Below are positions 37,488 to 58,885 of a stretch of 64,000 nucleotides of DNA, in pieces. The notes under the pieces are model-generated. The model was not told the origin of the DNA. It ran no database searches and worked only from the letters and a program-made list of their open reading frames with translations. Within the stretch, counting starts at the first letter, position 1; each line of letters begins with the position of its first letter. The stretch is from contig WIUZ02000009.1 in the NCBI GenBank assembly GCA_015956445.1, positions 62,001 to 126,000 of the forward strand. Reading direction: 5' to 3'. Source of the stretch: Thelephora terrestris. Lineage: Eukaryota > Basidiomycota > Agaricomycetes > Thelephorales > Thelephoraceae. The translations under genes and the position numbers were made by a program.

Positions 37488-37925
37488 ATGCCAGACCAAG
37501 ACCCCCCGGAAATAAATATCCTCGTGCGCATCAGGGAACGACTCATGACACAACATCAGTACTCCGAAGAACAGGCAGAGGCCAGGCTCATGGCAACCCT
37601 CCAAACCCTATTAGAGGAGCCCGATCCCCAACCGGGAGCTCTTCCGCCGCCTCGCGCTCCTCCCACACCCCCACTCGGCGACATCCAGAGACCTCCTAAG
37701 AAAAAAGCTACCTATGTAGACTTTGATCAAGATGCCACCATCGCAAGTCAAATTCCACACTATCCGAGCGAGTACGCCGTAGAGAAGATACAGGACATCG
37801 AATATGTGGAACTTTGGTACTTTACCACCGAAGGTTGTAGGGAAGCCAGTAAAACAACACCCACGGTGGCCGACGAAGCCTTCGGTATGAAGGGGTTTCC
37901 TGGACAGAATTATGTGTATACCTGA
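37488..37925 (+). CDS. Hypothetical protein with ELWYFT motif
   Basis: A 145-residue single-exon frame begins MPDQDPPEINILVRIRER after a long C/T-rich leader. It has an amphipathic N-terminal helix, a Pro-rich linker, and a compact region VDFDQDATIASQIPHYPSEY then IEYVELWYFTTEGCREA. I associate this last signature with small proteins scattered in Agaricomycete genomes near mobile elements, but cannot name a family. The C-terminus looks short and the frame ends directly before the ATCACT-type repeat, so the gene may be truncated. Function unknown. Confidence 0.5.
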   Translation: MPDQDPPEINILVRIRERLMTQHQYSEEQAEARLMATLQTLLEEPDPQPGALPPPRAPPTPPLGDIQRPPKKKATYVDFDQDATIASQIPHYPSEYAVEKIQDIEYVELWYFTTEGCREASKTTPTVADEAFGMKGFPGQNYVYT

Positions 37926-38282
37926 TTTTTGTTGTTCTTCACTAGTGATCACTCATGATCATCACTGATCATGCATTGCCACGGGTGACAAGTGGTGATC
38001 ATTCATGGTCATGACCGATCATTGGTGATCACGAGTGGTCTTGCATGAAGGCAAGTGATGACAGATTTTGTTCAATTTTCATCACCCGGTGTCACTCATT
38101 ATCACTTATGACCACTAGTTATCATGGGCATTTGAAGATTATAACCCACCACTCACAATCATTTTGTATCACCTCATGTAGTTCAGTATCACTTTGTACC
38201 ACTCACTGTCACTCGGTGTCACTCAGTGTTTTGTTCTCGACTTTGTCACTAGTAATCATTATCTATAATTTACCATCACTCT
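37926..38282 (+). repeat. Degenerate GTGATCA/ATCACT simple repeat
   Basis: About 350 bp is dominated by TGATCAT, GTGATC and TCACT words in both orientations (for example ACTAGTGATCACTCATGATC). It changes gradually to TATCACTTTGTACCACTCAC. It looks like an old minisatellite rich in short palindromes. Confidence 0.7.
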
Positions 38283-38398
38283 ACACCTGAGTGCGCTAGA
38301 CAATCAGAGCTCTCTCCTGGCTGGCGCAGTCCTTGGCACTCTGTCCCCATCATAACGAGACAACGAAAAGACTGAAGATTAATTGCTGGGACTATTTT

Positions 38399-41300
38399 TT
38401 ACAAGACGTTATACTCAGATACATTTACATTCTGAAACAATTGTAAGTGGACCCATTTCTCAAAACCACTCTTACGCCCTTCCATTGCCTTGATGACAGC
38501 AGTATGAAGCCACGGGGTGTACGGCACAGTAGTCTCTCGACTGCATGTCGAGATACTGAGTGCCGGCGCACCTGCATCAGAGAGGAACAAATGCTTCACT
38601 TCCAGAGTAATCTAACCAAAGTTTTGTGATTGTGTTAATGCCTTAGACCAGCTGCGTCCCACCTTGATTTCACTCCCAGGGCCATTTCCCACTGGCAACA
38701 GCCAGGAATCCGTGAGCTGCTGCAGGGCAATCCTTGCTCTGAACAGTGAGTCTGATTGGCGGAGATTATACTCTTCTGCGGTTATGTGATCTGGCATTGT
38801 TCCCAACACGTGCCCAACGCCATTGAGATAGACAAAGAAAACCTGCTTGAACGCGGATACAATGGCATCAGCCTGCCCCCGTCGGAGTTGGCCATTGCCA
38901 CCGTTGGTCTTGAAGGTAAAAAGCTGTTCTACATCGGAAACAGCATTCACCTTTCGGTTGTAGGCAGAAAGGGTGAGTGCCAATGGAGATAGATTTGTCA
39001 GGCGCAAGAGCTAGTTTTGCACCTGTTAGTTCGCACTAGAGGCATGCAAAAAAAAACTACCTGAGTGATTGTCAAGTCGCCAAAGCCTCCCAATGGCACC
39101 ATGAAACCCTCCAGCAGGCATTTAAACTGCGGCTTCTCCCACGGCTCTTGACATCCGAGGAAGGCAGTGGCCACAAGGGCCGAAGTCCAACACTCGTGGT
39201 CACCCTTGCACCGATGTGGGTTCACAGCATTCAACTTCGTTCTCATTGATCAGGCCGCCTGATCAAAGAAAATGCAGAACAGAGCATACCTGGAACTCGC
39301 ACAGACTCAGAACGCTCTGAACCAACAGCACTGGCTGAGGGACAGGTCCATCATCGAACCCCGTTAGCTTATCTGTCTCCTTCAGCACCATCCATGGCTG
39401 TAATATTCCAGCTGTCCCAGGGTCAAGCTGGTAGAGGGATCCTAGGTCGATCAAGACATCTTGAGCTTGAAGCGATCGCTCTCCTGCAAGTGAAGCAGCG
39501 GTAAGGAGGAGATAGAGCAGGAAAGGCGAGATGGGCTCTGGCCCATTTCCTAATGTGAGCAGATGCAACAGGGCGAGCGTTCCAATTGTCTTCCAACGAG
39601 TTTGATGTTCGACTGAGAGAGCTGGAGTGAATGCTGGCCTGACCCAACCGCACCCATCTACAGAGGCAACCCATAATGTTTGGTCCCCCACTATGGTTTG
39701 GATAGCTTGCTGGAGGGTCGCTCGTTCTGGTCCCTCGCCGGTGCTGACTTCTGGTATAAGTCCACCCCGAAATTCACTTCGGTGTGTCAGATAGGGGACA
39801 GAGGCAAAATGCAGTGGACTCACACAACATAGCAGCGCAGGGGCTGAAAAAATGCACCGAGAGAGGCTACTGCTTTCCAGTCCACTCCGTTGGGTACCTC
39901 AAGTTCAGAATCAAGAAGTTCAGAAGCCAGCACTGTCCCTTCATTACGATGGAATATATCCATCATCAAGACCAACGCCTCTGAAAGACTTTTGATCGAC
40001 CTAGCCCGAATCTGGAGGTCGGAAACTTGAACTGGTGTGCCCAAGTGGTGTGCACTTCCGCCAGGACGAACTTTCTCATGCCATTGGAGATAGCCTGGGA
40101 TATTGGGGGATGCCTTGATGCGCATGGGCCACAGCTCTGCAGAGGTCTCAATGGCCATAGGTCTTGTCACCTCTATACGACGGAACGTCTCAGCAAGTGG
40201 ACCGTCGTATATAGCCCGCAGTTCCGTCGATTGGAGTCGAGAAGGCTCTCCTATGGACTCGGGAACAGCAGCCTTGACAAGCAACACGAAATTGGTTTCA
40301 TTCACATCATCAGCAACTTCTCAAAAACAAACAGACATTGGGTTACCTCCGCTGTTTCCATCCTTTCAGCACGGGGCCTATTTACAGCTGGGAGGATTGA
40401 CCTCTCCTGGTGATAAATCTCAGCAAAAGAACATTAGCCAATGAATGTACCACTCACAGCCTGTAACAAAGGTGCTCTTGGGCCCAGTGGTTGGAGGGGA
40501 TGATAGGAAGGGACCTAGTGGAGAGGACTACGTCAGGTTGTGGGAGAAATAGAGTACATCTTATTCCACAAACTTCCTCTGACTCGGAAGAGTCAACAAT
40601 GATGACTGAGTCCCCTGCCCTAAGAGAGGCTCGGCGACTGACTCGCTCGGCTGGGTCTTCATCCATGCTCTACTCCAGGTGCCTGAGTTGACCTGGTACA
40701 AGCTACCCACTGAAACGTACTTACCTCATCGTCATCGATGTCCGGCAGCACAGGGCAGATTGGAGTATTTTTGCCATTGTGGCAGCGCTTGAGAAGTTTA
40801 GCAAACGTTGTCTGGGTGTCCTCTCCACATATTTTCAGGCCATGAAGAAGGCGATAGACGTAACACCCGTGAGGGTAGAACAGGTCACCGTTACCCTCGT
40901 CAAAATCATCATGGTAGACACCTTTTATTGCAGCAGAACAGTTGCCCGGAAACCTTGGACCTGTTGCACAGAGGTGACTGAACGAACAGATATGCAGGAG
41001 TTTGGTTCACGTACAAATTACGGCAATCTTCTCTGGCTCTGTTGCCACCTCTCGAAGTGTGTCCTTGAATCCAAACCCTTTGGCAATCTGGCTCATAGTG
41101 TACTCCACCGGTGCCAACCTCACCGAAGATCTCTTGATCTCAACGACCTCAACTTTTCGATGCTGCGCTCCTGCCCGTCTCGGTTGACCTTGGAGATCAC
41201 TTTCCTTTACTTTTGTCCTTTTGCACATCAGCAACTCCCAGCGTGGTTGCCCGTTGTTGTCCCCATTTGTCTGTAACTCTGGCAGCTTCGGCCCGCCTCT

Positions 41301-41845
41301 TGAAGTCAGGTCCGTCAGCCCTTGATCAATCAAGCCAGACACGATGCGGCTATCGTTGTCTTCGTGAGATACCTCCACAGTAAATATCAGGTTGTTTGAC
41401 TTGCAACGTGACAGGAACCTGTCAAATGAATCCTCCGGGTCCAGCCAGAACTTCTGCAAGAAGTCTCTGGGTACGCCAGATTCCGGTGGCATCTGCAACT
41501 CCTTCATCTGGAGAACCCATGAGTCGTTGGGCCAGTGGCAGCAGCATCACATACGTAGAGAGGGAGAAACAGGATGCTCAGCCGCAAGGGAGCCTTTGCT
41601 CGTGGACGTGCCAGAACAGGGGGGCGTCCTAACATGTGACGGGTTGGGGTGGATGCCGGAGATGGTATTCCACCCCGGTTACGAGTTGCAGCCCTGTTGG
41701 CACTGATCATCCGCCGTTCGTTTGCAGCAACACCTGGCTGTTGTGGTAACGAAAATACGTGAGTAATCGGGCTTGCACTGACAGCTGGCCGACTGGGTCC
41801 TGGAATGGGTGCAAGTGAGGTGATCGTGGATGGGATTGACAACAT
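38399..41845 (-). CDS. HECT-like E3 ubiquitin ligase with SUMO-interacting motif, element-associated
   Basis: A long multi-exon minus-strand gene. Exons recognised from the 5' side: a Ser/Pro-rich start MLSIPSTITSLAPIPGPSRP; KELQMPPESGVPRDFLQKF with a mixed alpha/beta region; FPGNCSAAIKGVYHDDFDEG with HGLKICGEDTQTTFAKLLK; an acidic exon with DSVIIVDSSESEE, a textbook SUMO-interacting motif; and VNETNFVLLVKAAVPES. Next come a helical region with STGEGPERATLQQAI, a stretch VEQLFTFKTNGGNGQLRRGQ, and a last exon with SISTCSRETTVPYTPWL then KAMEGRKSGFEKW. The last part resembles the HECT C-lobe end with its catalytic Cys in a TC motif. Assignment to HECT is by weak motif similarity and order, not a clear match. 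It neighbours the integrase gene, divergently. N-terminus and some exon borders are uncertain. Confidence 0.5.
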
Positions 41846-42788
41846 GTGCGGAGGACCATCAGGTCCGTGGGCATCTTGAAGACCGCCACACACACATGTG
41901 TTAGGGTTTTGCTACGGGGCCATTAGCAAGAGAGAGGATGGCACTGGGGCACCAACGAACCTGTACTGGAATGAAACCACCGCAATGATGAGGTGGATAC
42001 ACTTCAGTGCCGTCACCCTTGACGTGCATGAGTGCTGTGTGAGAACAATCACAGAGTGTGTAGGGTTCCTATTGACTGATGATTAGTGTAGGTTACCTAA
42101 AAACCACCCTGAGACGCGTACCGGGATGCTGCCTGAATAGAGAAATTTTGGACATGCGCACCCCTGAATGTAGCACCGACCTCGAGAAGCGAGCTGACGG
42201 GGGAGATCCATGGTGGAGAACGGTGATGCCGGATTCAAGAGCCGGTGATGTCCACTGAGAGGAGTTCGTACGGATTGAGGATGAGAGAAAGGTGCAAGGG
42301 GAACAGAAGGGTCTGTGCGAGAAGGGCTAGGGGTCTGACTGGTACTATGATGCTATATCCCTTGTGACATTGTTGGTGATTTTCGGTCGTTATATTTGGT
42401 CTGCCTGAGGAGACTTAGGCTCGATGAAAGCCCGGCCCGGCAGAGCCAGAGCCCCCATGCGGCAGATCAGTCACAGGCTGAAGCTCGCCAAGGGAAATGG
42501 GTTTGGAACAAACCGAGAGGAGACTAGACTGGTGGGGGAGCAATGGGGGAGGCTCAGGGGACGGAGCGCTGTTCCGATCACCTCCTCCTCTGCAACCGGC
42601 ATGGATCAAGTGTCCAATCTGCGCGTTTGCTACAGAATCCTCGAAGACAGAACCATCACAGCTCTTCAGACACAGGCCGGAGATAGCCAGAGGCTCAGAT
42701 CCCTTCGAGATGATGCAATTGTTTTCATGGTGGCAGTAAATGATGTAAGTGTTTGTGATGTACAACTGCGGTACCGGTTAGATCTGAT
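41846..42788. other. Divergent upstream region of the HECT-like and integrase genes
   Basis: A plus-strand frame at 42424-42846 with GTAAGT at its end might be a 5' exon of the integrase, but its frame does not join cleanly to the next exon, so it is not called. No other gene is seen. Confidence 0.45.
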
Positions 42789-44317
42789 GTGTGTGCCACC
42801 TGCACCAAGCGCAAAGATATGTTTCCTGCAGAAGAGCTGGAGTTGATTACATTGAACATAAAGGCGATGGTTGAGTCGTTGGACAGAGCTGAGGACCAAT
42901 CCATTGATCCGCCAAGCTCACCTCCGCATTCCATTTCGCACCTCAACTACTCTGGGACACCCGGCAGACCAAGGATAGAGATTGATGCCGAGGTTCTATC
43001 AAATGTTCTTTCTATCGAACCAAAGACCACCCTTGCAACTGTGCTTGGGTGCTCAGCCCGGACCATTCGCAGGCGCCAACAGGACATTGAGCTCCAGACT
43101 GGTATGCCCCTGGTCCCCCAACGGTCGGTTCTGTCAGAGAACGAGCTCGATACAATTGTGGGTGAAATATTAAAGGAGTTCCCGCACTATGGACGAAATA
43201 TGCTCATGGGTGCAATGACCTTCCGAGGTCACAACATCCCAGAGCGGCGTGTCAGAGAATCTCTGGATCGAGTCCGCGGCGCCCCAGGCCGCTTTTTTGG
43301 TTCTCGACCGATACACCGACGAAAATACTACGTCCCTGGTGCCAACTCACTTTGGCATCACGATGGCCAGCACGGTATGTCATAGGCTGTCTTACGATAG
43401 CAAGGCTTAGGTCTCAACCCAAATCAGGTCTAATCCGCTGGAAGATTGTCATCCACGGCTTCATTGATGGGAAGACAAGATTTATCGTTGGGCTTAGAGC
43501 CCACAACAACAACAGAGCAGCCACTGTGTTGAGCTTTTTCCTCGATATCATCTCAGTCCACGGCTGCCCCAGTAGAGTCCGAGGCGACCACGGAGTGGAG
43601 AATGTGAGGGTGGCCGACTATATGGAGGAGAAGATGGGACCTGACAGAGGTTCATACATTTGGGGGAGGTGAGCAATGCCTTCCAAATGTTTCTGGTTTC
43701 TCTCACCTTGCTGCAGGAGTGTCCACAACTCCAGGATTGAGAGGCTCTGGTACGATATGACTGAGGGGTTTGGTCGTAAGTGGAAGGAGTTCTTCTACAC
43801 CCTAGAAGATTGTCACGGCCTTGAACCATCGGACCCATCCCACGTTTGGTTACTCCATCTACTCTTCCTGCCCACAATTAACGAAGATGCTCTTGCCTGG
43901 GCTGAGACATGGAACTCTCACAAGATCCAATTAGAGGGAGAACGAAGGAGCTCCCCGCAGCAACTTTTCACCCGAAGCAGCTTGTTGGACGGTGTACACG
44001 GTCTACCCCCTCAAGGCGAAGAGCCTGAAGACTTCAGTTTGTATGGTGTCGACTGGGAGGCTATGGAAGGCCTTGGTCTCACCGACCATCCTGAGGATAC
44101 AGCAGAATTGGGGGACAGACAGGACCGTCCAGAGTGGATGAACGAGGTTGTCTGTGAGCCACCTGACTGTCCGCTGACGGATGAGCAGGTCAAAGGACTA
44201 GGGGACGAGCTTGCTGCAGTTGTGGATACACGGTCCAGAGACATGGACGTTCGAAGGGCGGTCTGGATCAAGGCTTTCGGGATTTTTTCACAGATGATTC
44301 AGGAAGCAGAGGACTAG
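42789..44317 (+). CDS. DDE integrase-core transposase
   Basis: Three exons (42789-43374, 43428-43668, 43717-44317) join in frame to 475 residues. An N-terminal segment has a helix-turn-helix-like LATVLGCSARTIRRRQ. The catalytic core of the retroviral-integrase fold follows: first Asp in WHHDGQHG (residue ~192), then RWKIVIHGFIDGKTRFIVGL, second Asp in VRGDHGVEN (~249), and Glu in RIERLWYD (~284), giving a D-57-D-34-E arrangement close to D,D35E. This is the integrase-core type with HNxRIERLW found in animal and fungal DNA elements. After the core is an acidic C-terminal extension (HPEDTAELGDRQ). All three catalytic residues are kept, so it may be active. It lies head-to-head with the HECT-like gene and tail-to-tail with 44393-45501. 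Start chosen at MCATCTKRKD, whose CxxC could bind zinc. Confidence 0.82.
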
Positions 44318-44392
44318 AACAATACATTGCTCATGTAGTACATTTTTACTGGAGGCAACTTGTTCCCAAAAGCTACAGGCGCCGACCGAAGT

Positions 44393-45501
44393 CTAGTTTC
44401 GGCTTCGGGTGTACTGATGAATCATGTCACGAAGAGGTTTGAGCAAGTACGATGCCCTAGTGTCTCCGTTTGGCAGGCAACGCTCCCATGGCCCTGGGTG
44501 CACCCCCCAGCTCTCCATTGCCTGGCGAGCCTTGTAGAGCGATCCTCCAAGGTCTTCCTCCTCAAGATGCTCAGTGTCAACCAGGAAGTGATAGACCGTG
44601 ATGAAGAACGTGAGTTTGTTGGACCACGTGCCTGGCGACTGCCCGTTCATGTACGAACCAAGGAGCGGAAATGAGATGGTCCTTTCGATCCTATCCCTGT
44701 CCAGGTATCGACCGGCTGACACACTGTGGAGAGCCATGTTGATGACCAGACCGTACGTTCCTCCAATTTGGAGTAGAAGCTGAACCTCTGCAATGGTCCG
44801 GTATGCCGTTCCCCAGCCCCTTTGACTGAATGTTTGAAGCTGGGATAGCTTGTCTTGCGCTAAGTCCCTGGTCCACTCTCGAACCTCTGCATCAGTCATG
44901 GGCCGTTTTAGCTCCTCAGAAGGAGGTTGATTGGGCTCAGGGGTTCTCCTGACGGTAGAGAGTCCGCTGGCTGAGTTGTCCTCCAAGGGAGGTGAGTTCA
45001 TCAGGTCGACCTCTTGAAGCAATGGATTACCCGACTCATGCTCCAGGATGAAGGTGTCAGTTGCATTCTCCTCGGCAAGGGATGTACCGGCTGAGCCACT
45101 TTCCGGAAGAAACAGGGGGATGGCGGCGGAGATGGCATGACTGACGAGAGCAACCCCCGACGAAGTACCTTGCACTGGCAAGAGGATAAGCTAAGCAGTC
45201 GGCAGCGCAGTAAGATGTTGGGGGGAGACTCACATTGATCGGCCTCGTCCTCAGAGGGTTCTTCGTGATCATGGGCCGCCTGGGTGTTGGGGATGGATTT
45301 TAGAATCGTGAGGATGGACGGTCCCTGTTCTCCAGAGTCGGTGGAAGCAGGTAAATCTTCGTCAGATGTCGGGTACTCCTCTCCTGAGGACTCAGCAACC
45401 GCCTCTCCAGGCTGCTGGCGAAGCGCTGCCGCCTCGTCCAGGGTGTGAGGTTCTGGAGGGAGAGGTGGATTGATTTGTCTACCAGACCGTGTGGTTTGCA
45501 T
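44393..45501 (-). CDS. Hypothetical charged protein in the integrase cluster
   Basis: Two exons join through a GTGAGT...CCAG intron near 45181-45235. The start MQTTRSGRQINPPLPPEP at 45501 is preferred over an upstream GTG. The first ~100 residues are acidic and disordered (EEYPTSDEDLPAS, EEPSEDEADQ). The second exon has a folded, helical region: EVREWTRDLAQDKLSQLQTF, RTIAEVQLLLQIGGTYGLV, and WSNKLTFFITVYHFLVDTEH. No domain is recognised. Its position tail-to-tail with the integrase, and a TRSGRQ-type start that recurs at 50068 (TRSRTR), suggest it is part of the same mobile unit. Function unknown. Confidence 0.6.
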
Positions 45502-45639
45502 AGGGGAGGAGGTTGGCTTAGGAATAAGTAGTCTGGAGGGAAGAGGGTGGGCTGTCACATGCTTGATAGCATGTGTTTTAACACCAAGAAATTAGATTAA
45601 AGTTGCCTGTCCGGCACAAAATTCGATCGAAGTTGCGCA

Positions 45640-47100
45640 CGGTTCAATTAAAATAGACAACTGGCTGTCGCCTGGGTGTCCACGGCCAATGTTCTGGTTC
45701 GCCTTTCTCTTCTGCTTGAAGTGCATGTCAAGGTGAGAGCTTCCAACTTTCCCTTACCGGTCGCATCATCTGAGAAGCGATGCCCACACCGTTTACACTG
45801 AACTGTTTGTTTCAGGAAAAGTTCATCAAAATTCGGCTTATATCTGGAGAGTAGATCAGAAATCAACGAGGCAGCTCTGCAGAAATGGTGTTCGGTACTT
45901 ACCCAGCGATTCATGCTGTCGAGAGCTCGATCCTCTGGGAAAGAAGCTTTTGCGCGTGCACTGACATATTCTTACTCGAGGAGTCTGTTGACTCCGACTT
46001 CGGTTCATTCACAATGTTCAAAGTCACAGGAGGGGCACCAGGAGCACCAAGTATGCCTGCCTTTACGAGGGCACTATACAAGCTCGCAATACCGCTTACT
46101 GCAGGCAAAGCAGGCACACCAGCCTGGTTAGTGGGTGCAGAAGGTATAGCAGATACGGGTTGCACAGGAGGATCAGAGGGGAAAGACGGCTTCACATCAA
46201 GAGTATCTTGAGGGTACGCACGTTGAGGTGGAGCAGATGAAGGGCCAGCATGATTGTAGCTATACTGCGAGTAAGTAGTAGAAGGCAGCAGAGCTGACAT
46301 GTTGGGGGCAACAGGGTATGACAGGGGAGGTGGTTGGACAGGAGGGCGGGTGATGTTTCTAAGTTGACTCAGCATTTGGCGCGGTTCATCCTGGGGTAGC
46401 CCGTTTTCACGAATTGGCGAAGCTAAAAGATAACATCACTTGCCCGATCACGAGGAAATGGCAACAAGATGTAGCTCACCTGATGTAAGACTGGAAGCTG
46501 GGTCCTCACGGTGTTATTATACGGATTAGACTGCACCTCACGTTCCGCCTGACCGACGGCAAATTGCAACTCGCCTAGGGCCTGCGTTGGGGATATGTGA
46601 CCGGCGTCCTGAATTCCGAGCGTTACGAGCAGTAAAGACAGTCAGGGACCGAAGGTACTTACTGACGAAGCGTTGGTGCCAAACAGCTCTTGTTCGATGG
46701 CCACTTGCGGCACAGCGCCGAAAAGCTCTTTGCCGTTGGGAGCACCGGCTTGCCAGGTAGCAAGGATCTTGATCATCTTGGCCTTGGTCGACTCATCCAC
46801 CTGGGAATATGTAGGTTCTTGGAAATCGCGTACAGGAGGTAGAATGCGGTAAGCTTGAAGGGCGGTGGAATCTGTATACAAATTAGGCAATGCAGATGCC
46901 TTCATCGCGGAACTGGCTCTTCCCACCACATTTTGTGAGCTGCTGGAATGGACGGCCAGCACGAAAGAGCGTAGGCATCAGGCATCAGCGGACAAACAGT
47001 GGACGCCAGCACGGAACGTACCTGAGAACTGCTTTGCATCTGTGAGCTCTCGTGCGAAAGACTCTAACGCGTGAACACGAACAGAATTTCTCATTGAGAA
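45640..47100 (-). pseudogene. PCF11: Pcf11-like cleavage/polyadenylation factor, decayed
   Basis: Minus-strand pieces follow the order of Pcf11, the CID-domain factor that binds RNA polymerase II and acts in 3' end processing. They are a CID end (ESTKAKMIKILATWQAG then KELFGAVPQVAIEQELFG), a helical exon AQALGELQFAVGQAEREVQS-like, LRQFVKTG, QMLSQLRNITRPPVQPPP, a Pro-rich linker, and the zinc finger VQCKRCGHRFSDD with LDMHFKQKRKANQNIGRGH. The reading frame is broken at least twice: between FVKTG and GLPQDE near 46400, and inside the zinc finger near 45745. No C-terminal end beyond the zinc finger is present. The 5' part above 47100 is not recognisable. A pseudogene of a normally essential gene implies that an intact copy exists elsewhere. 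Confidence 0.75.
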
Positions 47101-47771
47101 GTAAATTCATTAGCCTAGTGACATAGATCAGTGAAAGACAACGGTGCGTCGGTAGGGTTCCAGCAGCTATATGTCACTTACCGGCATGTGGAGGCCCATA
47201 AAACTGTGCCGTACTAACAGCGGCATGCCGTCAACGGGAATCAATGTGGGCATGACAAGGCGAGAGATTTAGCAAAGACGACGGCGCCCTTGAAGTATGT
47301 TGGCCGCCAGTGGTGTCGACTCGGTGGTAGATGCGTTTTGGGGCGCGGTCAATGGAGAGGTGTCCGCAGTTGTTATGACTCCCCCAGATCTATGAAATGG
47401 GGACCTGGCGAGCCAAACGTTTGAACGCGGCTGGCAGGAAGAGCAGTTGGCGGGTGGAACCGTTGTAGACCTTGGGGTGAGCTGAGACTCCAAGTGAGCT
47501 GAGGAGCGCGACGTCGCAGACGACGGCAACAATGGTGGAGGAATGGCAGGCAGGGAGCATCGAAAGTGTTTGCTGCCCAGAACCTCCTTTGCCACGGCCC
47601 GGAGCCTACCACTTTCACTACTAGCAACAAGCCTGTCGACGGTGAACTCCCTCGTCTCGAAACGAGAACGTACGTATGCCCTATTCTGTGGTCCAATATA
47701 TGTGGTCTATTGAATATTCTACTTTGGTAGCTGATCGCAAAGTACGGTGATGCCACAAGTTGGATCGACCC

Positions 47772-47952
47772 TGCCTGGTCCGTTTGGCGAGACTGCAAGA
47801 CTCATGTCGTGAATCTGCGGAGATTGTTCAAATGATCTCCTTTTCCAGCGAATGCAAAGCAATGGGCATCGTGTTTTGTCTCCGTCCCAGCTGCTATCGC
47901 TTCTTCCTAAAAGGCGCCTTGGAGATCCTCATCTTTTGCAGAGTTCCACTTG
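47772..47952 (+). pseudogene. P2B Ca2+-ATPase fragment (nucleotide-binding domain)
   Basis: About 60 codons read CRESAEIVQMISFSSECKAM and then CYRFFLKGALEIL. This matches the VEIVQMIPFSSERKAM...YRLFLKGASENL part of the ATPase remnant at 57889-58885, which holds the KGAS ATP-binding site. It is an isolated, truncated piece. The plus strand continues without ATPase similarity. Confidence 0.8.
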
Positions 47953-48328
47953 TCTCTCCTTTCACTTTGTATCTCCCATCATTTTGTATCTCAAGTTGAA
48001 ACATAGTTGTTGTGCATGTTCAGTATTCTTATTGGATGACTACATTGTACAAAACAGGCGCACACCGTGACAAAGTGCTCGGTTGAAATGCAGCAGAGCA
48101 AGGTGTCAAATCATAAATATAGTTCATCTCTGAGCCGGAAACGAAAGTCTTTACATTGTATGTAGGATGGGAGAAGCCAAAGAAACGATTTGTGAAAGCA
48201 GAAGTTGGCGAGAACGGAGAAATGACTACAGATAACGGAAAGGGGGGTGGGGATTGAGATTGCTGGTGCCACCGCTTGTGCAATGGTGCAATGGTGCAAT
48301 GTCCTGGAACGAACCCAAATACACCTCC
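47953..48328. other. No gene recognised
   Basis: AT-rich spacer between the ATPase fragment and the next minus-strand gene. It contains short CAATGGTGCAATGG direct repeats near 48280. Confidence 0.6.
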
Positions 48329-50068
48329 TTACTTATCACCAACATCTGCTGCAGCATTACCAACAGATGCAATCAAGTCAGCATCGACGTGGGCAGCTTC
48401 AGCGTCAGGGTCCTCATTGTCACCAACATCATCGTCAGTGCCATCAATGTTGCCAGCATTACCACCAACTCCGGGTTCTTCACCGTGGCTGAGGTCACCT
48501 TCGATTGTACTGGGCACGCCTGAGGGGGGACGTGAAAGCAGCATTCCATCGTCCTCAATTTCAGAACTCTCTTCTTCCGTGCTTGAAATTCCCGGAGAGG
48601 TTCGCCTGCGCTTGGAAGGGCCAGCAATCTGCCTAGAAATGTGGTCACCGCTGGTTTCGTCATTGTTGTCGTATTCGTTATCGGAGGTGCGCGATGAACG
48701 AGTCACAGGCATGACATAGGCATGGTTGAACTCGTGCGTGGACTGCACGGGATCATCTGTGTGGTTCTGTCGCAGCTCCAAAGCCCACGAGCGAAGATTA
48801 GGCTACAGCAGATGAATAAATCAACGATGAGGCATAAATGCAGAGGTGGTGCTTACCACCCACCCCAGCTCAGTATCAAACCACTCGTCCAATTCTTCCT
48901 CAACAACTGCAGAAACCTCTACATCGTTCCACCGGGGGAACCCCCCACCCGTTGGCCTTGAGGACCTTTGCATGTTATTTTGGATAAGGTCGTGGTGACT
49001 CAATGTGATCGTGAAGTCCTCTTGGCTTTTCCCATCGATCTTCCCAAGAACGACGGCCAAATGCCACCGGGCCTCTCGAATATAGACAAGATTATGTCGG
49101 TAGGAAGGGATGTACTTTGGATCCAGTGGGTCCATCCCGAGGTAAAACGCCGTTACCCTGGCAATCGTAGGTTTGCTGTTTTGGGGATCCAGCGCTCTGC
49201 GAATCGCTGGACCATGTACATCGGGAATTCCATTGAGTTGACGTTGGAGAATTGGTGTGAGGACTTTGGAGCGAAACTGGTGTTCTGCACCTCGGAACCT
49301 GTTGAGCTCCAGGCCGAATTCATCAAGGACTTTCTGTGCGTATGTCTGCCGGCGGAGTATTTCATGAGCCTTGTTCTTTTTTGCCAGTTCGATCTCGAGT
49401 ATGAATTGGTGGAGGAGACGTGCGTATTGGACGGGAATGCGCTTTGTGACCATGTTCCATTTCCTCCGATCCCCCGATTGTTTCTTGCGTTTCCCGTAGG
49501 AGATATCATGCAGCTGGCCTTCTTTCCATGTCATGAACGAATCCCCAGTTACCTCGGCGTCGAAACGGTACTTTGAGCTAAGTGATGCCGCATAGATAAA
49601 CAGGATGCACCTCTTAGATCAGGAAAATCAGACGTACACATAATACACTGGCTTGTATTGCTGAAGTGTCCCCTCATAATCTGACTCTGTGACCTCGGCA
49701 ATCTTCCGGGGGTTGTAATCAGGAAAGGGATTGGTGTCATCCTCGTTGAAGGTGGTACCAAGTTTGAACTTGCGAAGGGGATTAACAGCATCGAACAGGA
49801 TGCACATCTGGAAGTTCTGTGTAATCGCCCAGGTTCCGACCATGGATGGGGCAATCCATTTAGCGACTGGCCTATTGACCCGCGAACGATCTGTGGTGGC
49901 CTCGTCTGGTTCTGCCTCCGGGTCAGATAGGACATCGGCGGCCTTGCGCTTCTTAGTCTTCTTTGAGGAAGTTGCTGGCTTGCCACCACGCGAACGGCTG
50001 GGTCGACCTCGGTTGGGCGCAGGAGGTGCCTCCTCAGCACGAGTGCGACTTCTCGTCATTGGAGGCAT
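48329..50068 (-). CDS. Hypothetical nuclear-type protein in the integrase cluster
   Basis: Three exons are inferred. Exon 1 starts MPPMTRSRTRAEEAP at 50068 and carries a basic SKKTKKRKAADVL nuclear-signal-like stretch, then a folded-looking part (WAITQNFQMCILFDAVNPLR). Exon 2 (about 49560-48830) is a helical region including KWNMVTKRIPVQYARLLHQF, YAQKVLDEFGLELNRFR and FPRWNDVEVSAVVEEELDEW. Exon 3 is acidic and disordered (TSDNEYDNNDETSGDHISRQ, EEESSEIEDD) and ends DVGDK. No domain or catalytic motif is recognised. The layout (basic start, helical middle, acidic end) suggests a DNA- or chromatin-associated protein. Likely belongs with the other element-associated genes; function unknown. Confidence 0.6.
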
Positions 50069-50745
50069 GGTATCGCAGGAAGGGGGAGGGATGCGGCTCT
50101 GCAATCGATGGGATATCGATGAGAGAGACAGATGCAGTCCTACAATCAATACAGGATTGATAGGCAAAAGATCAAAAAGAGGGGCGATTGTCTAGCCCTG
50201 TTGGACGCCGGTGCTGATTGCAAACTCCCAGCACTGTGTCTAAAAATAATATGATCGTAGTGGCGCCCTTGGCGCCTTGGCCCTTCTCTCTGATGAAGGG
50301 GGTAGAAGAGGCTGATCGGAGATTTCATGGCCAAAACTCCTCCTTCAGAACTGCCTCGATAAGCTGGCAGCGCAATGTTTCGGGGGTGGAGGTGTAAAAG
50401 GAGGGAAGAGACTGGACTGTGGAGTCAGAAGTCCTCTCGCATTATAGGTTACAGGTACTCTATGCAGCCCTTCCATCCATGCAACTTATGGGTACATCGG
50501 GTTGGTCGGGATGGAGCGAAGCTGGTTGTTGGCAGAGAGACCGACATGTTTCAACACGGACAAGTTAACCCCCCTCCTTAGGTTTTCGGGGACACCAGTA
50601 GACCGGAAAGACCCGTTACCGGCCAACGGATGAAGGCCAGATGTGCCGATCGGCATATCATGAGCCCACGCGGCTAAATATATACAAATAACGTGTCTCA
50701 GACACGACGCGTGACCGCGATCGGCGTTCAAACACGACCTCCGTA
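50069..50745. other. No gene recognised
   Basis: Spacer upstream of the minus-strand gene, grading into the satellite. No RNA gene or domain is seen. Confidence 0.6.
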
Positions 50746-51600
50746 CCAACCCAACCAGGAACTCCTGGAAGGGCCCACCAACCTGGAATTCCAGGACGGT
50801 CTTCTCGCTGCGGCGAGTAGGGATGGCGTGTATTGGTTTTCCCAGCCCAACCAGGAATTCCTGGAAGGGCTGACCAACCTGGAATTCCAGGAAGGTCCAG
50901 CTCGTTTTTTTCGAGTGGGGAACACCTGCCCACCTTTGCGACAACCCCAGCCCAACCAGGAATTCCTGGAAGGGTTGGCCAACCTGGAATTCCAGGAAGG
51001 CTTTGTAGGGGCGACATCCACAGCAATCCCAACCCAACCAGGAATTCCTGGAAGGGCTGACCAACCTGGAATTCCAGGAAGGTCCAGCTCGTTTTTTTCG
51101 AGTGGGGAACACCTGCCCACCTTTGCGACAACCCCAGCCCAACCAGGAATTCCTGGAAGGGTTGGCCAACCTGGAATTCCAGGAAGGCTTTGTAGGGGCG
51201 ACATCCACAGCAATCCCAACCCAACCAGGAATTCCTGGAAGGGCTGACCAACCTGGAATTCCAGGAAGGTCCAGCTCGTTTTTTTTCGAGTGGGGAACAC
51301 CTGCCCACCTTTGCAACAACCCCAGCCCAACCAGGAATTCCTGGAAGGGTTGGCCAACCTGGAATTCCAGGAAGGGTTGGCCAACCTGGAATTCCAGGAA
51401 GGCTTTGTAGGGGCGACATCCACAGCAACCCCAACCCAACCAGGAATTCCTGGAAGGGCTGACCAACCTGGAATTCCAGGAAGGTCCAACTCGTTTTTTC
51501 GAGTGGAGATTGCCCTCTGTCGCTCATTTTGGCAACCCCAAGCCCAACCAGAAATTCCTGGAAGGGTTGGCCAACCTGGAATTCCAGGGAGGTTCACTTT
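50746..51600 (+). repeat. Palindromic EcoRI-site satellite, 187-bp higher-order unit
   Basis: The array is built from alternating short palindromes, CCAGGAATTCCTGG and CCTGGAATTCCAGG, set 10-25 bp apart. They are embedded in a 187-bp unit that also contains CTTTGTAGGGGCGACATCC (at 51001, 51188 and, after one extra subunit, 51403). Outer units are more diverged. It is open in several frames on both strands (NQEFLEGLANLEFQEG peptide on the plus strand, and frames up to 326 codons on the minus strand) because the unit length and lack of stops allow it, so these are not genes. Confidence 0.92.
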
Positions 51601-51880
51601 GTTTGCTGAGTGGGGAATGTTTAATGCCCTTCGGCGATCCCATATAGAAGAGGGGTCTTGTGTGATCCCTCAAGCCAGAGTATGACATGACACGAGACCG
51701 GGTATTCTACCTTGTGAGATGTAACATCAATAATATTGCTTATATACTTGTAGCTAGGTTCTGTAATCATCTTGTATCATAAGTGAGAGACATCTTACAA
51801 GAAAACGAAATCTGATTGTGGCCGATTAGGAAGCGCAGCAACGATTGATCTTGATATAAATAACAGATCTGTATCTGATC

Positions 51881-54138
51881 ATGCGAATTGATAAGACCTC
51901 TTCACTCTGGAACCCTCAAGACATGAGCGACGACCAGTGTGTAGATATTGTTTACGTTGGATTGGCCTGGGAAGCATCGCAAGGCTTCACACTGGAACAA
52001 GGCTTTGAGGCTATGTCAAGGGATGGAACGATCAGAGCCTCGAACAAAGAATGGGACAATCGATGTATGTTGCGGCCACGAATATGTTCAGGATACTGAC
52101 AGATTGGTTTACACAGTAAGCCGGGCCAACGTCACCCAGATTAAGGTGCTCTCAGATGCGGCAAAGGCGAAGATTTGCAGAGACACTGGAAATGGAAAGT
52201 ACAGCGATAGAGGGGATGCTAAGGAGCCACCTCTTATGGCCCCAGTCACTGATGCAACTCAGTATTCACGGGTGCGGTGTTAGTCCCTCCGAGCTAAAGA
52301 CTGTTGCTGACGTCAAACAGTGGTGTTCCTTCTGCAATGACTTTCGTGATCTCCTGTTGCTCTGTGCAGGGTGCAGGGTCGCTCTGTGTTCTTCGGACGT
52401 GAACTCGATGAGGGGCTGTGTCCCATGGAACATCTCCATGGATAGGAAAGACTTCATCTTCCTTTGCCCATACTGTGCAGGGTCCAATGCGGATGGAGGC
52501 CCATCTACAGTATGTCATGCAATCCACTTCATCACGTATATTGCTGATGTCTATTTCTAGCTAGTGTTTAGAGTGACAGGGACACTCCGGAAAAAATGGG
52601 ACATTCCATTTCGCCATGATCCAGCCGTCCTGATAGTATCCATACGCTATTCCAAAAAGTCGCACAGCTTTGGAAAGCTCCTTCGAGATCACCTGAATCT
52701 CTCCTACGGGAACAATGAGGAATCTGTACGTCATCGCCGCATGTTTGCCAAGTGACACAACTGACATATATTCAGGTTATGCTCGTAGAGCGAGCTGTAG
52801 ACAGCACCGTCAGACACGATGACAACGGTCGCTTTACGTGGTCCAATGACACGTCACTTGCGGAGGAATTCCTAAATGCCCACAAGTCCGCGAAGATAGT
52901 GGTCGCCATTGATACTCACTCTGCAGACAATGGGTATTTTATTTGGACGGGGTCTACCGCTGAGACATACCGTGCATGTTCGCTACTTGAGGTAACTATG
53001 CTCACTGGAATCTCCGTACAAATCCTGATCTAATCAACAGATACTCCGGGATTGTAGCCCAAAGGGAATATTCAAGTATCTGTCAAATGCTGAAGACACT
53101 CCAATTCATAGTCACAAGTCTCTGATCATAAACCTTGCATGTGGACAATCCATCTCTCAAGATCGCACACGGAGTGAGCTACTCAATGGGTATGTTTCCA
53201 TTCATTCAGGATTTCTGTATCACACTTCACTCATGGTTTGCAGACATTGTGCTGATGCGGTCCTCTCCCTGGCGAAAGATGCAAACCTTGTGGGCGATAT
53301 CTCTGGAACACTCCTCGATTTGACCGCTGGCTGGGTTCAAACCCTGTCCGACTACAATGTCCTTATGGCCAGATTTATCAAAATGTCGTGGGCCTCCAAC
53401 CACCTTCCCATCCTATCTCGGCATGGTCATGACACGACCCGGTTCACCACCTTCTTCATTGACAATGTACCACAGCCGGTCCCTGATGCCGCCAGACCCG
53501 ATTCCAACGACCATGTTCTCTTCACTGGCTTCAGCATGGGTTCTCCTGGAGGCATGGTGGTTCGCTGCCCTATTGTTGATCATCAAGGGATAGGCATCAA
53601 GCAGACGAAGGGCGCAGTCCGAATCACATGTGAAGAGTGCCTCTCCAAGTGCACCGTTCCCCAATTCAGGTCTGATCCTACCTCACCATTGAAAACCCAA
53701 GGGCTTGTAGCCATCAACTACCCCCCAGCCCAGTACCCAATACAATGGGAGCTGTCTCCGAAGGCCCTCCAAACGAATGCCAAGATCTCTTGGGCAGAAA
53801 CACCGATGCCAGATACTCCCCCGCCCCTGCAGGGACCAAGGGAGCAACCGACTATTCGCATCTCATGTTTAGATACAGTGATCAGATCAGCATCCCTCCC
53901 ATCCTCAACCACTGTCACCCCAAGACCATCGTCATCAAACTTGCGCATTCGAATCCCTGCAAGGCAGTCAACCCCAAACCTTCGTTTGCCGCAGTCAACA
54001 AGGGACAATGGATCACATAGCAATAACTCGACTCCCCCTCTCCAATCCCCACAGGAGTCAGTGGAAGCCCGGAAAAGGGCATTTGAGGAGTCAACAAGTG
54101 GGATATGGGTGAGGCGGCGCAGGTCAAAAAACCAGTAG
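51881..54138 (+). CDS. Zinc-finger protein with possible caspase-like core, element-associated
   Basis: About seven exons join in frame. It starts MRIDKTSSLWNPQDMSDD at 51881. A PHD/RING-like cysteine module follows: WCSFCNDFRDLLLLCAGC, then RVALCSSDV and FLCPYC. Next is an alpha/beta domain with alternating hydrophobic strands: AVLIVSIRYSKK, SAKIVVAIDTHSADNGYF with a His, and KSLIINLACGQSIS with a Cys at a strand end. That His...Cys order and spacing recalls the caspase/CHAT fold. After it are a helical region (GTLLDLTAGWVQTLSDYNVL), a Cys-pair ITCEECLSKC, and a Ser/Pro-rich basic tail ending RRRRSKNQ. Frames join at every intron examined (for example the GTATGT intron before HCADAVLSLAK), so it looks intact. 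Same neighbourhood as the integrase. Caspase-like assignment is an inference only. Confidence 0.55.
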
Positions 54139-54945: not shown

Positions 54946-55773
54946 TTTTCTTGAGTTAACGCCTTTCCTTTCCTTTGGTTACTGCACCCTTTGCCTTTTC
55001 TCCAGTCTTCCGCTCCTCCGATGCCTGCTAAGCAAACTCGTCGACCGGCGTGTCAGCCCTCTCCCCCCGCACTTCCCGCCCAGGCTGAGGCTCCACCACC
55101 CCTTGGTACTACTGGTTACTACTGGTGGCTACTACGGCGTCGCGACCACCGTCTAAGGTCAAAGCCATTATCATCCGGCCACCAAAATACAACGTGGACC
55201 TTTACCCTCACCATATAGCCACCTATCTCCCTCCCTACCTCCCACTCAAGAAGTGGTTATGCTCACGGTCACGTTTAACGGGAATTTGAAGGCGACGTTG
55301 GACCACGTTGTGAACGGCACCTTCCGCCCCGAAGTTCAGAGCTTGCTTTGGGTACCTGAAGGTGCGTTATCCATTCTTTGTCAGCGCTGGTTATGCCAAA
55401 GCGTTCCAGTATTCCGCTTTTTCTTTGTACTCCCTGCGCCCGAGCTGTTGGCCTTTGAACCCTCAGAATCGTCGTGAGTACCCTATTTCAATGTTTCGCA
55501 TCTTTCTGACGCCCTGACAGCCAACAACCCCCCACACCCTCACCAATCACTCCATCTTGAAAGCCTGCAACCCGTCGTCTGCATTGTGTCGCCCGCATCC
55601 CATCATCTCTATCACACGGGCCATCCCCAGCCATTCGCAAACACCATCATGCCCCTTCGGTTCGACCCGACAATGGCTTCCGAACGAACGCCTCCGTCTC
55701 TCGGTGGAAATACCCCACCCGCTTCCTTCCACAATCTTCCCAATGTCTTCCAGTGCCCGCAACCCTCCCAATC
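54946..55773. other. Low-confidence coding remnants
   Basis: Plus-strand frames starting MPAKQTRRPACQPSPP (55021) and MLTVTFNGNLKATLDH (55259) look protein-like and could be exons of one unrecognised gene, with a GT donor at about 55362. A second frame between them has RPPKYNVDLYPHHIATYLPP. Stops and frame changes prevent a firm model. Confidence 0.3.
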
Positions 55774-55892
55774 TAACCAGGATCTCCTGGAAAGATTAGC
55801 CAACCCGGAATTCCGGGAAGGCATTCTCGCCCTTCGCCACGCAGCCCAACCAGGATTCCCTGGGTAGGGTAGCCAACCTGGAATTCCAGGAA
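55774..55892 (+). repeat. Diverged members of the GGAATTCC palindromic repeat
   Basis: Two adjacent units contain CCAACCCGGAATTCCGGG and CCAACCTGGAATTCCAGG, each preceded by a matching AACCAGGATxxCCTGG element. They are the same family as the satellite at 50746-51600 and have the same order of palindromes. Confidence 0.8.
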
Positions 55893-56313
55893 GGCTTGCT
55901 CGCGTTTTCTCCCCACACCCCTGACCGCCCTCTCCAACCACGGCATGGTGTAGGCGATGGTCTACGAACGCCGGAATGTATCCCCTGCTCCTCAACCGCC
56001 ACCATTCACCCATCACCAACAAACTCTCCTACTCCTCGCCCATCCGTCCTTGTTCTCCCACAACCATCTCCTCCTGACCATCTCAGTCTACATTGCGCCC
56101 GCTTATCGCCTTTCACACCGTTTAGGGAATACAGTGATCCCTCCATGCTAGGTCCCGGGATTCTGAAGCCCAGTAGACAGATTTTCGACGGCACCACCGA
56201 CGGGACCGGTCAAGTCCGGTGTCTCCTTCTCCCATCCTTTCTACCCAACGGTCCTCAGCCCACTTTACAAACATCGCAGCTCTCCGAGAGACACGCCTGG
56301 TGACGGCACTAAC

Positions 56314-57038
56314 GTCTCTGTAACCTTCGTCGTTGTCGCTGTTCCGGAAGGCCTTCTGCTCCCGGTAATCCTCACACTCGCTTTCGCTACAAAGCGGATG
56401 ACCATCAAAAAGCTCCTGATTTGTATCCCCAGCTCTTGCGAAACAACAGCGAACGATTCCGTTGTCTGCACTGACAAGACTGGAACACTTAATAGGAGCA
56501 TCATGAGTGTTGTTGCCGGGTCGATCGGTATCTATGGCAAGTTCCTTATTTACTGCCCTGATGATCCGTTTCTTCGTACAATTAGGAACGGAGAACCCGC
56601 TCGGTTAGCGTTCATCATCTCACCACCTCCATTTTCCGCTCACATGTCCTCATAGTACTGCGAACGAGAAAGGCATCGCCTTCACTCAGATTTTGATCAT
56701 CTCTGTATCCCTAGTCGTTGTGGCTGTTCCCGAAGGCCTTCCGCTTGCAGTAACCCTCGCGCTCGCTTTCACTACGAAGCGGATGACCGCCGAAAAGCTC
56801 CTCGTTCGCATCCTCAGCTCTTGCGAAACAATGGCGAACGCTTCTGTTGTCTGTACCGACAAGACTGGAACATTGGCTCAGAACGTCATGACTGTCGTTG
56901 CTGGTTCCATCGGTATCCATGGCAAGTTCGTTCGGAACCTCAAAGACAATCAGGCTCGCACGAACGCCCCGGATCAGGATGAAGATCGTGACCCCTCTCC
57001 CGAACGAGACATCGTGGATGAGCCCCGGGTAAATCGCA
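56314..57038 (+). pseudogene. P2B Ca2+-ATPase remnant, left part, with internal duplication
   Basis: This carries the TM4 and phosphorylation region of a plasma-membrane/vacuolar type Ca2+ pump: VVVAVPEGLPLAVTLALAF (the PEGL calcium-site motif), then TKRMTAEKLLVR, and SVVCTDKTGTLAQNVMTVVA with the phosphorylated Asp. The same exon is present twice, offset by 385 bp. The first copy (56314-56555) has changes such as PEGLLLPV, and the second (from about 56699) is closer to consensus. Between them lies FFVQLGTEN, a TM3-like piece. The N-terminal half of the pump (actuator domain, TM1-2) is missing upstream. The right part resumes at 57892, on the other side of an inserted transposon. Confidence 0.88.
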
Positions 57039-57888
57039 AGCACACAGACACTGGGGGCAAGGAGTCACTTACCCAGCGATTACATTGTGATTACATTGTG
57101 ATTTTTTAGACAATGTATCCAGCCTGTGGCCAGGAGTTACATGTTGAGTTCTTTTACAAAGTACCCATCAATGCAACCACAATGTGGCCAGTGGGTCCAT
57201 CTTGATCACTTTCACAAAGTACTCATCAATTCGATCACAATGTGCCCTGTGGGTCCATGCAGGATACATTGTAAAAGTATCCATCAAAGTGGCCACTGGG
57301 CACTTTGTGAAAGGAACCCCTGTGTTCTTTCACAATTTTGCTTACAATGTGTCCAGCATACACCTGAGCCACTCATTGAGAGTTCTTTCATAAAGTATCC
57401 AGCAATGTGTCCACAAAGTTTTCAACCAGATACTCAATGGTTTCTTTGAAAGTTTGTTGTGAAATCCAACCACATTGAGAGTTCATTGTGAAAACATTAA
57501 GAAGAACCCCCTGGGGACATTGTGGTTGCATTGCTGGGCACTTTTTGAAAGAACTCTCAATGAGTGGCTCAGGCACCCAGTAGGATACATTGTGAACAAA
57601 ATTGTGAAAGAAATCAGGGGTTTCTTTCACAAAGTGCCCAGTGGCCACTTTGATGGATACTTTTACAATGTATCCTGCATGGACCCACAGGGCAAATTGT
57701 GATCGAACTGATGGGTACTTTGTGAAAGTGATCAAGATGGACCCACTGGCCACATTGTGGTCACATTGATGGGTACTTTGTAAAAGAACTCAACATGTAA
57801 CTCCTGGCCACAGGCTGGACACATTGTCTAAAAAATCACAATGTAATCACAATGTAATCGCTGGGTAAGTGACCCCTTGCCCCCAGTG
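57039..57888 (+). mobile_element. Foldback DNA transposon, CACTG ends, 3-bp target duplication
   Basis: An 850-bp element is almost entirely one long inverted repeat (arms of about 400 bp; left 57039-57460, right 57480-57888). It begins CACTGGGGGCAAGG and ends CCTTGCCCCCAGTG. It is flanked by AGA on both sides (57036-57038 and 57889-57891). CACTG-type ends with a 3-bp duplication fit the CMC/CACTA (EnSpm) group. There is no transposase frame, so it is non-autonomous, MITE- or foldback-like. It sits inside an exon of the Ca2+-ATPase remnant, and precise removal with one AGA restores the frame. The arms differ at only a few percent of positions, so insertion is probably recent on an evolutionary scale. 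Confidence 0.9.
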
Positions 57889-58885
57889 AGATGACTTCTC
57901 GATCGACCAGAGCGAGATCAGCTCTATCCTATCCCCTCAGCTCAGACGTCTTTTCAACCAGTCGATCACGGTCAATTCCACCGCCTTTGAGGACATCGAC
58001 CTGGAAACCAAGGAGGTGGTCTTCGTCGGAACCAAGACCGAGACAGCGCTTCTCCAGTTCGCCAAGGACATCGGCCGGGAAAACTGGAAGCAAACCCGTG
58101 AATCGGTGGAGATTGTCCAAATGATCCCTTTTTCCAGCGAGCGGAAAGCCATGGGCGTTGTGATTTGCCTTCGCTCCGGCCGCTATCGTCTGTTTCTCAA
58201 AGGCGCCTCGGAGAACCTCACCAAGATGTGCACCCGGCATGTCGTCGTCTCTAAGCACACAGATCAATCACAAGACCCCAACGCCAGGATCGAGACTAGG
58301 GACATCGACGAGACGATGAAGGACAACATCTCGAGAACGATCATCTTCTATGCCAACCAGATGTTGAGGACGATCGCGTTGTGCTATCGGGATCTCAGTT
58401 CCTGGCCCCCTCGTGGTGCCCAGTTCCAATCTGCAGATGAGGTTTCTTATGACGACCTCGCCTATGACAGGATCCTGGTGGCCATCACCGGTATCGAGGA
58501 CCCCCTTCGTGATGGTGTCCCGGATGCTGTCGCTTCCTGCTGCCGCGCTGGAGTCACCGTCAAGATGTGCACGGGGGATAACGTCCTCACCACTCGCTCG
58601 ATCGCTACTCAGTGTGGAATTTACACTGCGGGAGGTATAATCATGGAAGGTCCTGTTTTCCGCGCCCTCGATCCGAAAGACCGCACAGAGGTTGTCCCTC
58701 GTCTCCAGGTCCTGGCCTGCTCTTCCCCTGAGGACAAGAAGATACTCGTCGAGACCCTGCGCTCCCTTGGTGACATCGTCAGCGTTACTGGCGATGGTAC
58801 GAACGACGGCCCTGCTCTCAAGACGGCGAACGTCGGGGTTTCGATGGGTATTGCCGGAACCGAGGTTGCCAAGGAGGCTGGCTAA
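57889..58885 (+). pseudogene. P2B Ca2+-ATPase remnant, right part
   Basis: This continues the left part in the same frame: DDFSIDQSEISSILSPQLRR, then FVGTKTETALLQFAKDIGRE, EIVQMIPFSSERKAMGVV, YRLFLKGASENL (ATP site KGAS), YRDLSSWP, GIEDPLRDGVPDAVASC, and VKMCTGDNVLTTRSIATQCG. The conserved hinge TGDGTNDGPALKTANVGVSM, IAGTEVAKEAG follow, and then a stop. TM5-TM10 and the C-terminus are absent. After the stop the sequence is unrelated. The pump normally exports or stores Ca2+ and needs those helices, so this copy cannot transport. A fragment of the same gene family lies at 47772. Confidence 0.9.

Follow-up and report, generated by a model that had tools for sequence, protein, structure and literature searches.

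Among giant fungal elements that carry cargo, the Starships of ascomycetes are the best known. In the available accounts, Starships (Pezizomycotina) are classified by their tyrosine recombinase. Here we analyze a 64,000-nucleotide stretch of Thelephora terrestris DNA (the window; C60:62001-126000, C denoting a contig of the host assembly of 40.6 Mb and 60 contigs), which holds much of an inserted unit. The unit resembles a Starship in being a giant fungal element with cargo, but differs from one in its DDE integrase and inverted ends, with no tyrosine recombinase among the open reading frames (ORFs) scanned. We favor, with a probability of about 85%, the reading that it is a giant IS3EU-kind DNA transposon with element-owned accessory genes that act on the host, its other pieces being passive cargo.

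The ends, the duplication length and the integrase of the window element appear, at the level of sequence, to fit the IS3EU superfamily. As described in the available sections of PMC10045372, IS3EU families have TA..TA ends, usually 6-bp duplications, and transposases without HHCC in which the first catalytic Asp lies 100-300 residues in. The likeness to IS3EU/GingerRoot elements extends to the DDE core of the window integrase, which is without HHCC and has its first Asp at residue 184 (start inferred), to 6-bp duplications in both families described below and to TA..TA ends in the window family. The differences are a length of 23-31 kb, exceeded by the C4 and C11 copies (in the latter through nested insertions), the presence of several accessory genes and, in the second family, TT at the 5' end. 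Such a size and such recurrent accessory genes seem unusual for IS3EU, which the available parts of two further papers list in fungal genomes and say nothing more of (PMC12411881, PMC8955403).

TET+ IS3EU elements have been described in rusts and Tuber (Kojima 2025; PMC12730594). In the sections available, Kyakuja, Zisupton, EnSpm, Plavaka and Helitron2, but no TET+ IS3EU, are the elements given for Agaricomycotina, and HECT, ubiquitin and caspase go unmentioned in the main text. Like TET+ IS3EU, the elements here have ends of the IS3EU type and 6-bp duplications, and the second family has, by a weak match, a TET/JBP-like gene; they differ in carrying HECT-like and caspase-like genes, of which those sections make no mention. 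The Burro elements of planarians are similarly giant, with ubiquitin/SUMO-related accessory domains, but are Gypsy-like long terminal repeat retrotransposons with other domains (PMC6431247, in the part available). No such element is named in the available parts of PMC6431247 or PMC10799480, and a search of the open literature gave no paper combining IS3EU, transposase and HECT, or HECT domain, transposable element and integrase core domain. The kind of element (IS3EU) is known; searches limited to open papers, with repeat databases left aside, did not turn up a giant form with several genes.

A unit inserted as one piece with a 6-bp duplication

The initial annotation had proposed a possible multi-gene mobile unit of five genes at 38399-54138. 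Shared ends and 6-bp duplications bear out the mobile unit, and the proposed span proves too narrow. The five genes are enclosed by a single inserted unit at window 37886-66295 (C60:99886-128295; 28,410 bp), whose right end lies 2.3 kb past the window edge, at C60:128295. Comparison with a sister copy on C11 gives one discrete homology block, window ~37961-66296, with unrelated flanks on both sides; this block and the mapped ends place 37886-64000 of the window within the transposon. The left terminal inverted repeat (TIR), TATGAAGGGGTTTCCTGGACA, occupies 37886-37906 (+ strand) and has its partner at C60:128275-128295 (- strand), the repeats being imperfect (17 of 21 positions identical between TATGAAGGGGTTTCCTGGACA and the inverted TATGAATGGTTTGGCTGGACA). 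The hexamer CTTCGG abuts both ends as an exact 6-bp target-site duplication (left copy 37880-37885; right copy C60:128296-128301, outside the window). Excising the unit together with one CTTCGG yields an uninterrupted gag-like frame, ...TVADEAFGLLNTTSGLTLQPIKATKASPNA..., across the joined flanks, and an intact relative of this frame at C60:261767, ...TAADNVFNLLGTGTGPVSLQPMKATKASPNA..., matches the rejoined ORF. The insertion target on C60 was a retroelement gag-like ORF. The subterminal 400 bp (37886-38285) are rich in GATCA: counts per 400 bp are 11 in the first and 7 in the last, with an interior mean of 1.13 and an interior maximum of 5.

The C11 copy is 99.4% identical to that on C60 over 26,262 aligned bases (gaps excluded) and contains large nested insertions. 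We rejected an interpretation of the two as allelic haplotypes, as their flanks differ. A left edge at 37961 was likewise discarded as an artefact of the C11 copy being split there. Bases 37886-37963 recur once, at C27:3397-3474, after CCAAAC, and CCAAAC also trails the C11 copy; the true left end is 37886, and the first 78 bases of the C11 copy sit on C27 beside this hexamer. In the C11 copy a break thus falls 75-78 bp in from the left end (C11:447300 / C27:3397), where the pieces on the two contigs share ATC, and this break may be a later large insertion, a rearrangement or an assembly break.

A related, second family comprises seven copies of 23-55 kb with paired TIRs similar to those of the window element: C1:4460910-4487622, C4:37833-92517, C12:709767-736374, C20:101095-126230, C34:2450768-2473956, C58:481887-512030 and C59:42454-73597. 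When the flank of the C34 copy was used as a query, the other six copies all began matching at one base, C34:2450768, and identity is 97.5-99.9% over 1.9-3.5 kb in six of the seven copies (C1 lying outside the comparison). The termini are TATGAA..TTCATA in the window family and TTTGAA..TTCATA in the second. A TIR pattern allowing one mismatch or none gave 26 matches in the genome versus 1 for a reversed-pattern control; 18 of the 26 belong to the nine mapped copies as their ends, the other eight being lone. Exact 6-bp duplications flank the C12, C20, C34 and C58 copies, so that across both families they occur at five of the eight loci whose two ends share a contig, with another spanning C27/C11. 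The hexamers flanking the C1 and C59 copies are swapped (GAAAAC and CTCGTG), which suggests, as the best reading, a reciprocal exchange between the two copies and, by way of these giant elements, between chromosomes. The C34 copy splits a DEAD-helicase ORF that becomes continuous on removing the element and one GTACTT; a reading frame was thereby restored at both sites tested (C60 and C34). The unit was inserted as one piece with a 6-bp duplication, and the related family was inserted elsewhere by the same rule. The inverted repeats and target duplications that the initial annotation had suggested looking for by comparing copies were thus found, as were, within the host genome, repeated copies with shared boundaries.

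Genes of the unit and their distribution in the genome

The presence of all five genes is confirmed, that of the integrase also by Pfam. Their frames had been called open and spliceable: no internal stop was found in the eleven coding pieces checked in the window copy, and the HECT-like gene could be spliced by eye except at two junctions (about 40318-40346 and 38570-38662). The richness of the genes in introns and the families they belong to have a fungal look, and an Agaricomycete source is plausible.

The DDE integrase/transposase (42819-44317, + strand; three exons, two introns, start inferred) matches Pfam rva_4 on two exons (E 2.6e-26 and 1.6e-21) and rve (E 0.003). Its catalytic spacing is D-56-D-34-E; the 34 residues between Asp and Glu agree with the earlier count, and the interval between the two Asp residues, given there as 57, is 56. 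One Cys occurs in the 183 residues preceding the first catalytic Asp, counted by eye from the inferred start. Three in-frame stops interrupt the integrase in the C11 copy and none was seen in the window-copy exons read. A 2-kb query of the integrase region gave, besides C11 at ~100%, seven matches of 432-612 bases at 67% and a further seven confined to short stretches; the integrases of the two families are 41-71% identical, exon by exon.

The HECT-like gene (38399-42211, - strand), with several introns and spliced by eye in pieces, comprises a Cys-rich N-terminus, the string VIIVDSSESEE, which we take to be a SUMO-interacting-like motif, a putative N-lobe (39290-39776) and a C-terminal STC (38399-38569). 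Near its C-terminus stands a Thr-Cys, presumably a HECT feature, with 47 residues after the Cys, and this pair is in register in both families (C34 exons picked by eye; C-terminal alignment E 2e-13). The Cys-rich N-terminus (~41860-42211) has a sub-threshold match to FAM221A/B (E 2.6e-4; 21.2 bits, cut-off 25). In whole-genome protein searches, in which same-locus hits were merged before counting and only the best candidates scored, the HECT-like family gave no hits outside C60, C11 and the seven second-family loci, matching at the latter with E 2e-7 to 2e-5 (1.4e-7 in an ORF comparison).

The remaining three genes are as follows. The TRSGRQ-type gene (44393-45501, - strand), convergent with the integrase, encodes an acidic/helical protein; a relative with 29% identity adjoins the integrase at all seven second-family loci, and the family was found at these, at C60 and C11, and at C4:1077957. 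The TRSRTR-type gene (48329-50068, - strand; MPPMTRSRTR...) was not found in the second family. The zinc-finger gene (~51923-54138, + strand; start codon inferred) encodes QWCSFC...CPYC, a His strand, VVAIDTHSADNGYF, and a Cys strand, INLACGQS. Similar His and Cys strands were seen by eye in the zinc-finger gene of the C34 copy; BLAST joined the window and C34 proteins convincingly over the zinc finger only, in a single match of 58 residues (E 6.6e-4 when ORFs were compared; 2e-5 with exons picked by eye).

The second family thus encodes an integrase, a TRSGRQ relative, a HECT-like protein and, on weak matches, a zinc-finger relative and a TET/JBP-like ORF. The last lies in a 6.5-kb internal stretch of the C34 copy that recurs at each of the seven loci, in some of them interrupted by insertions, beside a 775-residue ORF without a Pfam match; the C59 copy is without ~70 bp of the stretch, inside the TET-like ORF. 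This ORF contains HRD and, downstream, FSHSVEGW, which we take to fit the pattern of 2-oxoglutarate oxygenases.

A locus was scored as linked if any of the 18 integrase loci lay no more than 45 kb away, for which chance is ~4% per locus; near-identical copies among the loci are not independent of one another. Linked loci number 9 of 9 for the HECT-like family (8 of 9 within 25 kb), 9 of 10 for TRSGRQ, 8 of 14 for the zinc-finger/His-Cys family and 8 of 23 for TRSRTR; furthermore, 12 of the 14 zinc-finger loci are 12 kb or less from a TRSRTR locus. A third, more distant set of integrases (C3, C5, C12, C23, C58) has TRSRTR and zinc-finger/His-Cys genes alongside, and TRSRTR also lies beside an integrase of this type at C24. 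The TRSRTR and zinc-finger/His-Cys families occur additionally at places without an integrase hit, and neither HECT-like nor TRSGRQ relatives were found at the third set in the whole-genome protein searches. The genes do recur together within the host genome, as the initial annotation expected, and the full five-gene set was found in the window and C11 copies only. Elsewhere, the subsets are integrase, TRSGRQ, HECT-like and the weak zinc-finger relative, or integrase, TRSRTR and zinc-finger/His-Cys.

Origin and role of the accessory genes

As a giant IS3EU-kind transposon, the unit would be inserted by its integrase, which may recognize the TGAA...CTGGACA ends and make cuts staggered by 6 bp. 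The HECT-like, zinc-finger/His-Cys, TRSGRQ and TRSRTR genes, with the TET/JBP-like gene of the second family, would be genes of the element, whose proteins may act on host chromatin or protein turnover and so keep the element expressed; the ATPase described below and similar pieces would be passive cargo. We speculate that the likeliest role of the accessory proteins is to help the element persist in a host that methylates its DNA: the TET-like enzyme could strip methyl marks, the HECT-like ligase with its SUMO-interacting-like motif could eliminate a silencing protein, and the zinc-finger/His-Cys protein could cleave one. CpG transitions account for 53 of the 72 mismatches between the C60 and C11 copies (four blocks, 15.4 kb) and for 42 of the 77 between the C34 and C4 copies (3.4 kb), with CpG bases at 9-10% in each comparison. 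Such an excess is as expected from deamination of 5-methylcytosine in methylated DNA.

Several results weigh against this reading. The HECT-like protein has no HECT match in Pfam and no HECT chain in PDB sequence searches, both up to E 10, and the zinc-finger/His-Cys protein gets no caspase support from Pfam or PDB sequence searches. The names HECT-like and caspase-like given by the initial annotation keep their motifs and gain no profile support from these searches, and both labels, as motif assignments, are tentative. Structure models of a HECT-like exon and of the TRSGRQ frame had mean confidence scores (predicted local distance difference test) of 37 and 38, respectively, and were useless. 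The TET/JBP label is also tentative, because the Pfam match is weak (E 0.077) and below the cut-off. As to the ends, the second family begins with TT instead of TA and is without GATCA enrichment (1 and 2 at its ends; mean 0.74), the hexamers flanking the C4 copy do not match each other, and the ends of the third set were not recognized, a relaxed TIR pattern giving 47 matches versus 33 for its control. Moreover, the ratio of nonsynonymous to synonymous change (pN/pS) between C60 and C11 is 0.81 (8 synonymous and 21 nonsynonymous changes), with three stops. The earlier suggestion that the genes are selected together is therefore not supported, and from so few changes the ratio says little about selection.

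The near-neutral ratio is also what would be in keeping with the accessory genes being passengers, captured between the ends of an ordinary integrase element and dispensable for its movement or persistence. We consider this less likely, but a serious alternative. Dead cargo is indeed present as ATPase pieces, gene sets vary between groups, and TRSRTR and zinc-finger genes lie away from integrase hits at 15 of 23 and 6 of 14 loci, respectively. However, at the search sensitivity used, the HECT-like gene was found at integrase loci only (9 of 9), and it was kept while the integrases of the two families diverged to 41-71% identity; TRSGRQ behaves likewise (9 of 10).

Subtelomeric segmental duplication in place of transposition is very improbable. 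The C4, C34, C59, C1 and C60 copies are indeed near contig ends, at distances of roughly 40-110 kb, and sequence beside the C34 copy recurs at other contig ends, but duplication of segments does not account for exact ends, 6-bp duplications and restored target ORFs; the C12 and C58 sites are interior, and the C60 and C11 flanks are unrelated. Maverick/Polinton elements are large. They share with the unit giant size, an integrase and 6-bp duplications (PMC10045372, available sections), and a Maverick/Polinton or other virus-like giant element is a similarly remote prospect, since inverted similarity is obvious over only ~21 bp, and no DNA polymerase, packaging-ATPase, protease or capsid family was found in ~38 ORFs or gene pieces scanned, drawn from 140 ORFs of at least 100 aa in two elements, many of them out of frame. 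A genome search for PolB (PF03175) was silent, as were its controls. Least credible is a stack of unrelated transposons inserted into one another: such nesting exists, in C11 especially, but a single pair of ends and a single duplication bracket the unit, and the 6.5-kb stretch is collinear in seven second-family copies.

Beyond the preferred reading of a giant IS3EU-kind transposon, it is possible, and we put it forward tentatively, that basidiomycete-type fungi harbor their own counterpart of Starships, a lineage of IS3EU-type transposons of giant size (23-31 kb). In these, the integrase would be accompanied by a recurring set of accessory proteins (E3-ligase-like, zinc-finger/His-Cys peptidase-like, TRS proteins and TET-like oxygenase) that counters host silencing of copies methylated at CpG. 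If so, a DDE giant element with ligase-, peptidase- and demethylase-like genes would give fungi another way, unrelated to the first, of moving large blocks of genes. Nine copies with signs of recent movement are mapped, the swapped C1/C59 duplications suggest that copies exchange chromosome arms too, and methylation-type decay together with a TET-like gene makes the contest between element and silencing directly testable.

Cargo, repeats and lone ends

A broken P-type cation ATPase at 56167-58882 (+ strand) matches Pfam Cation_ATPase on 57890-58879 (E 3.3e-20) and, below the cut-off, E1-E2_ATPase on 56609-57103. The initial annotation had placed a decayed host ATPase around the five genes; it is broken and lies inside the unit, at 56.2-58.9 kb, probably as captured cargo. 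It is interrupted by an 840-bp foldback insertion (57049-57888; 306-nt arms, 96%), which is missing from the same ATPase site in C11 and is found instead within a C11 insertion (C11:459455-460295).

Between the TRSRTR and zinc-finger genes lies a minisatellite of GGAATTCC-containing units (50744-51604). Its units with GGAATTCCTGGAAGG, at 50744-51604 and again at 55766-55906, resemble the second-family end GAAGGGAATTCCTGGACA, and could possibly be transposase-binding or end-derived repeats.

The repeats adjoining the C34 copy (C34:2443001-2450767), including the DEAD-helicase ORF, are common to the contig ends of C59, C25, C6 and C1 and look subtelomeric. Among the lone ends are a window-type left end at C54:5331 (an 11.9-kb contig), with TRSRTR matches 1.3 and 6.2 kb off, a second-family right end at C16:555447, and a one-mismatch end at C38:11975, with a TRSRTR match 8.6 kb away.

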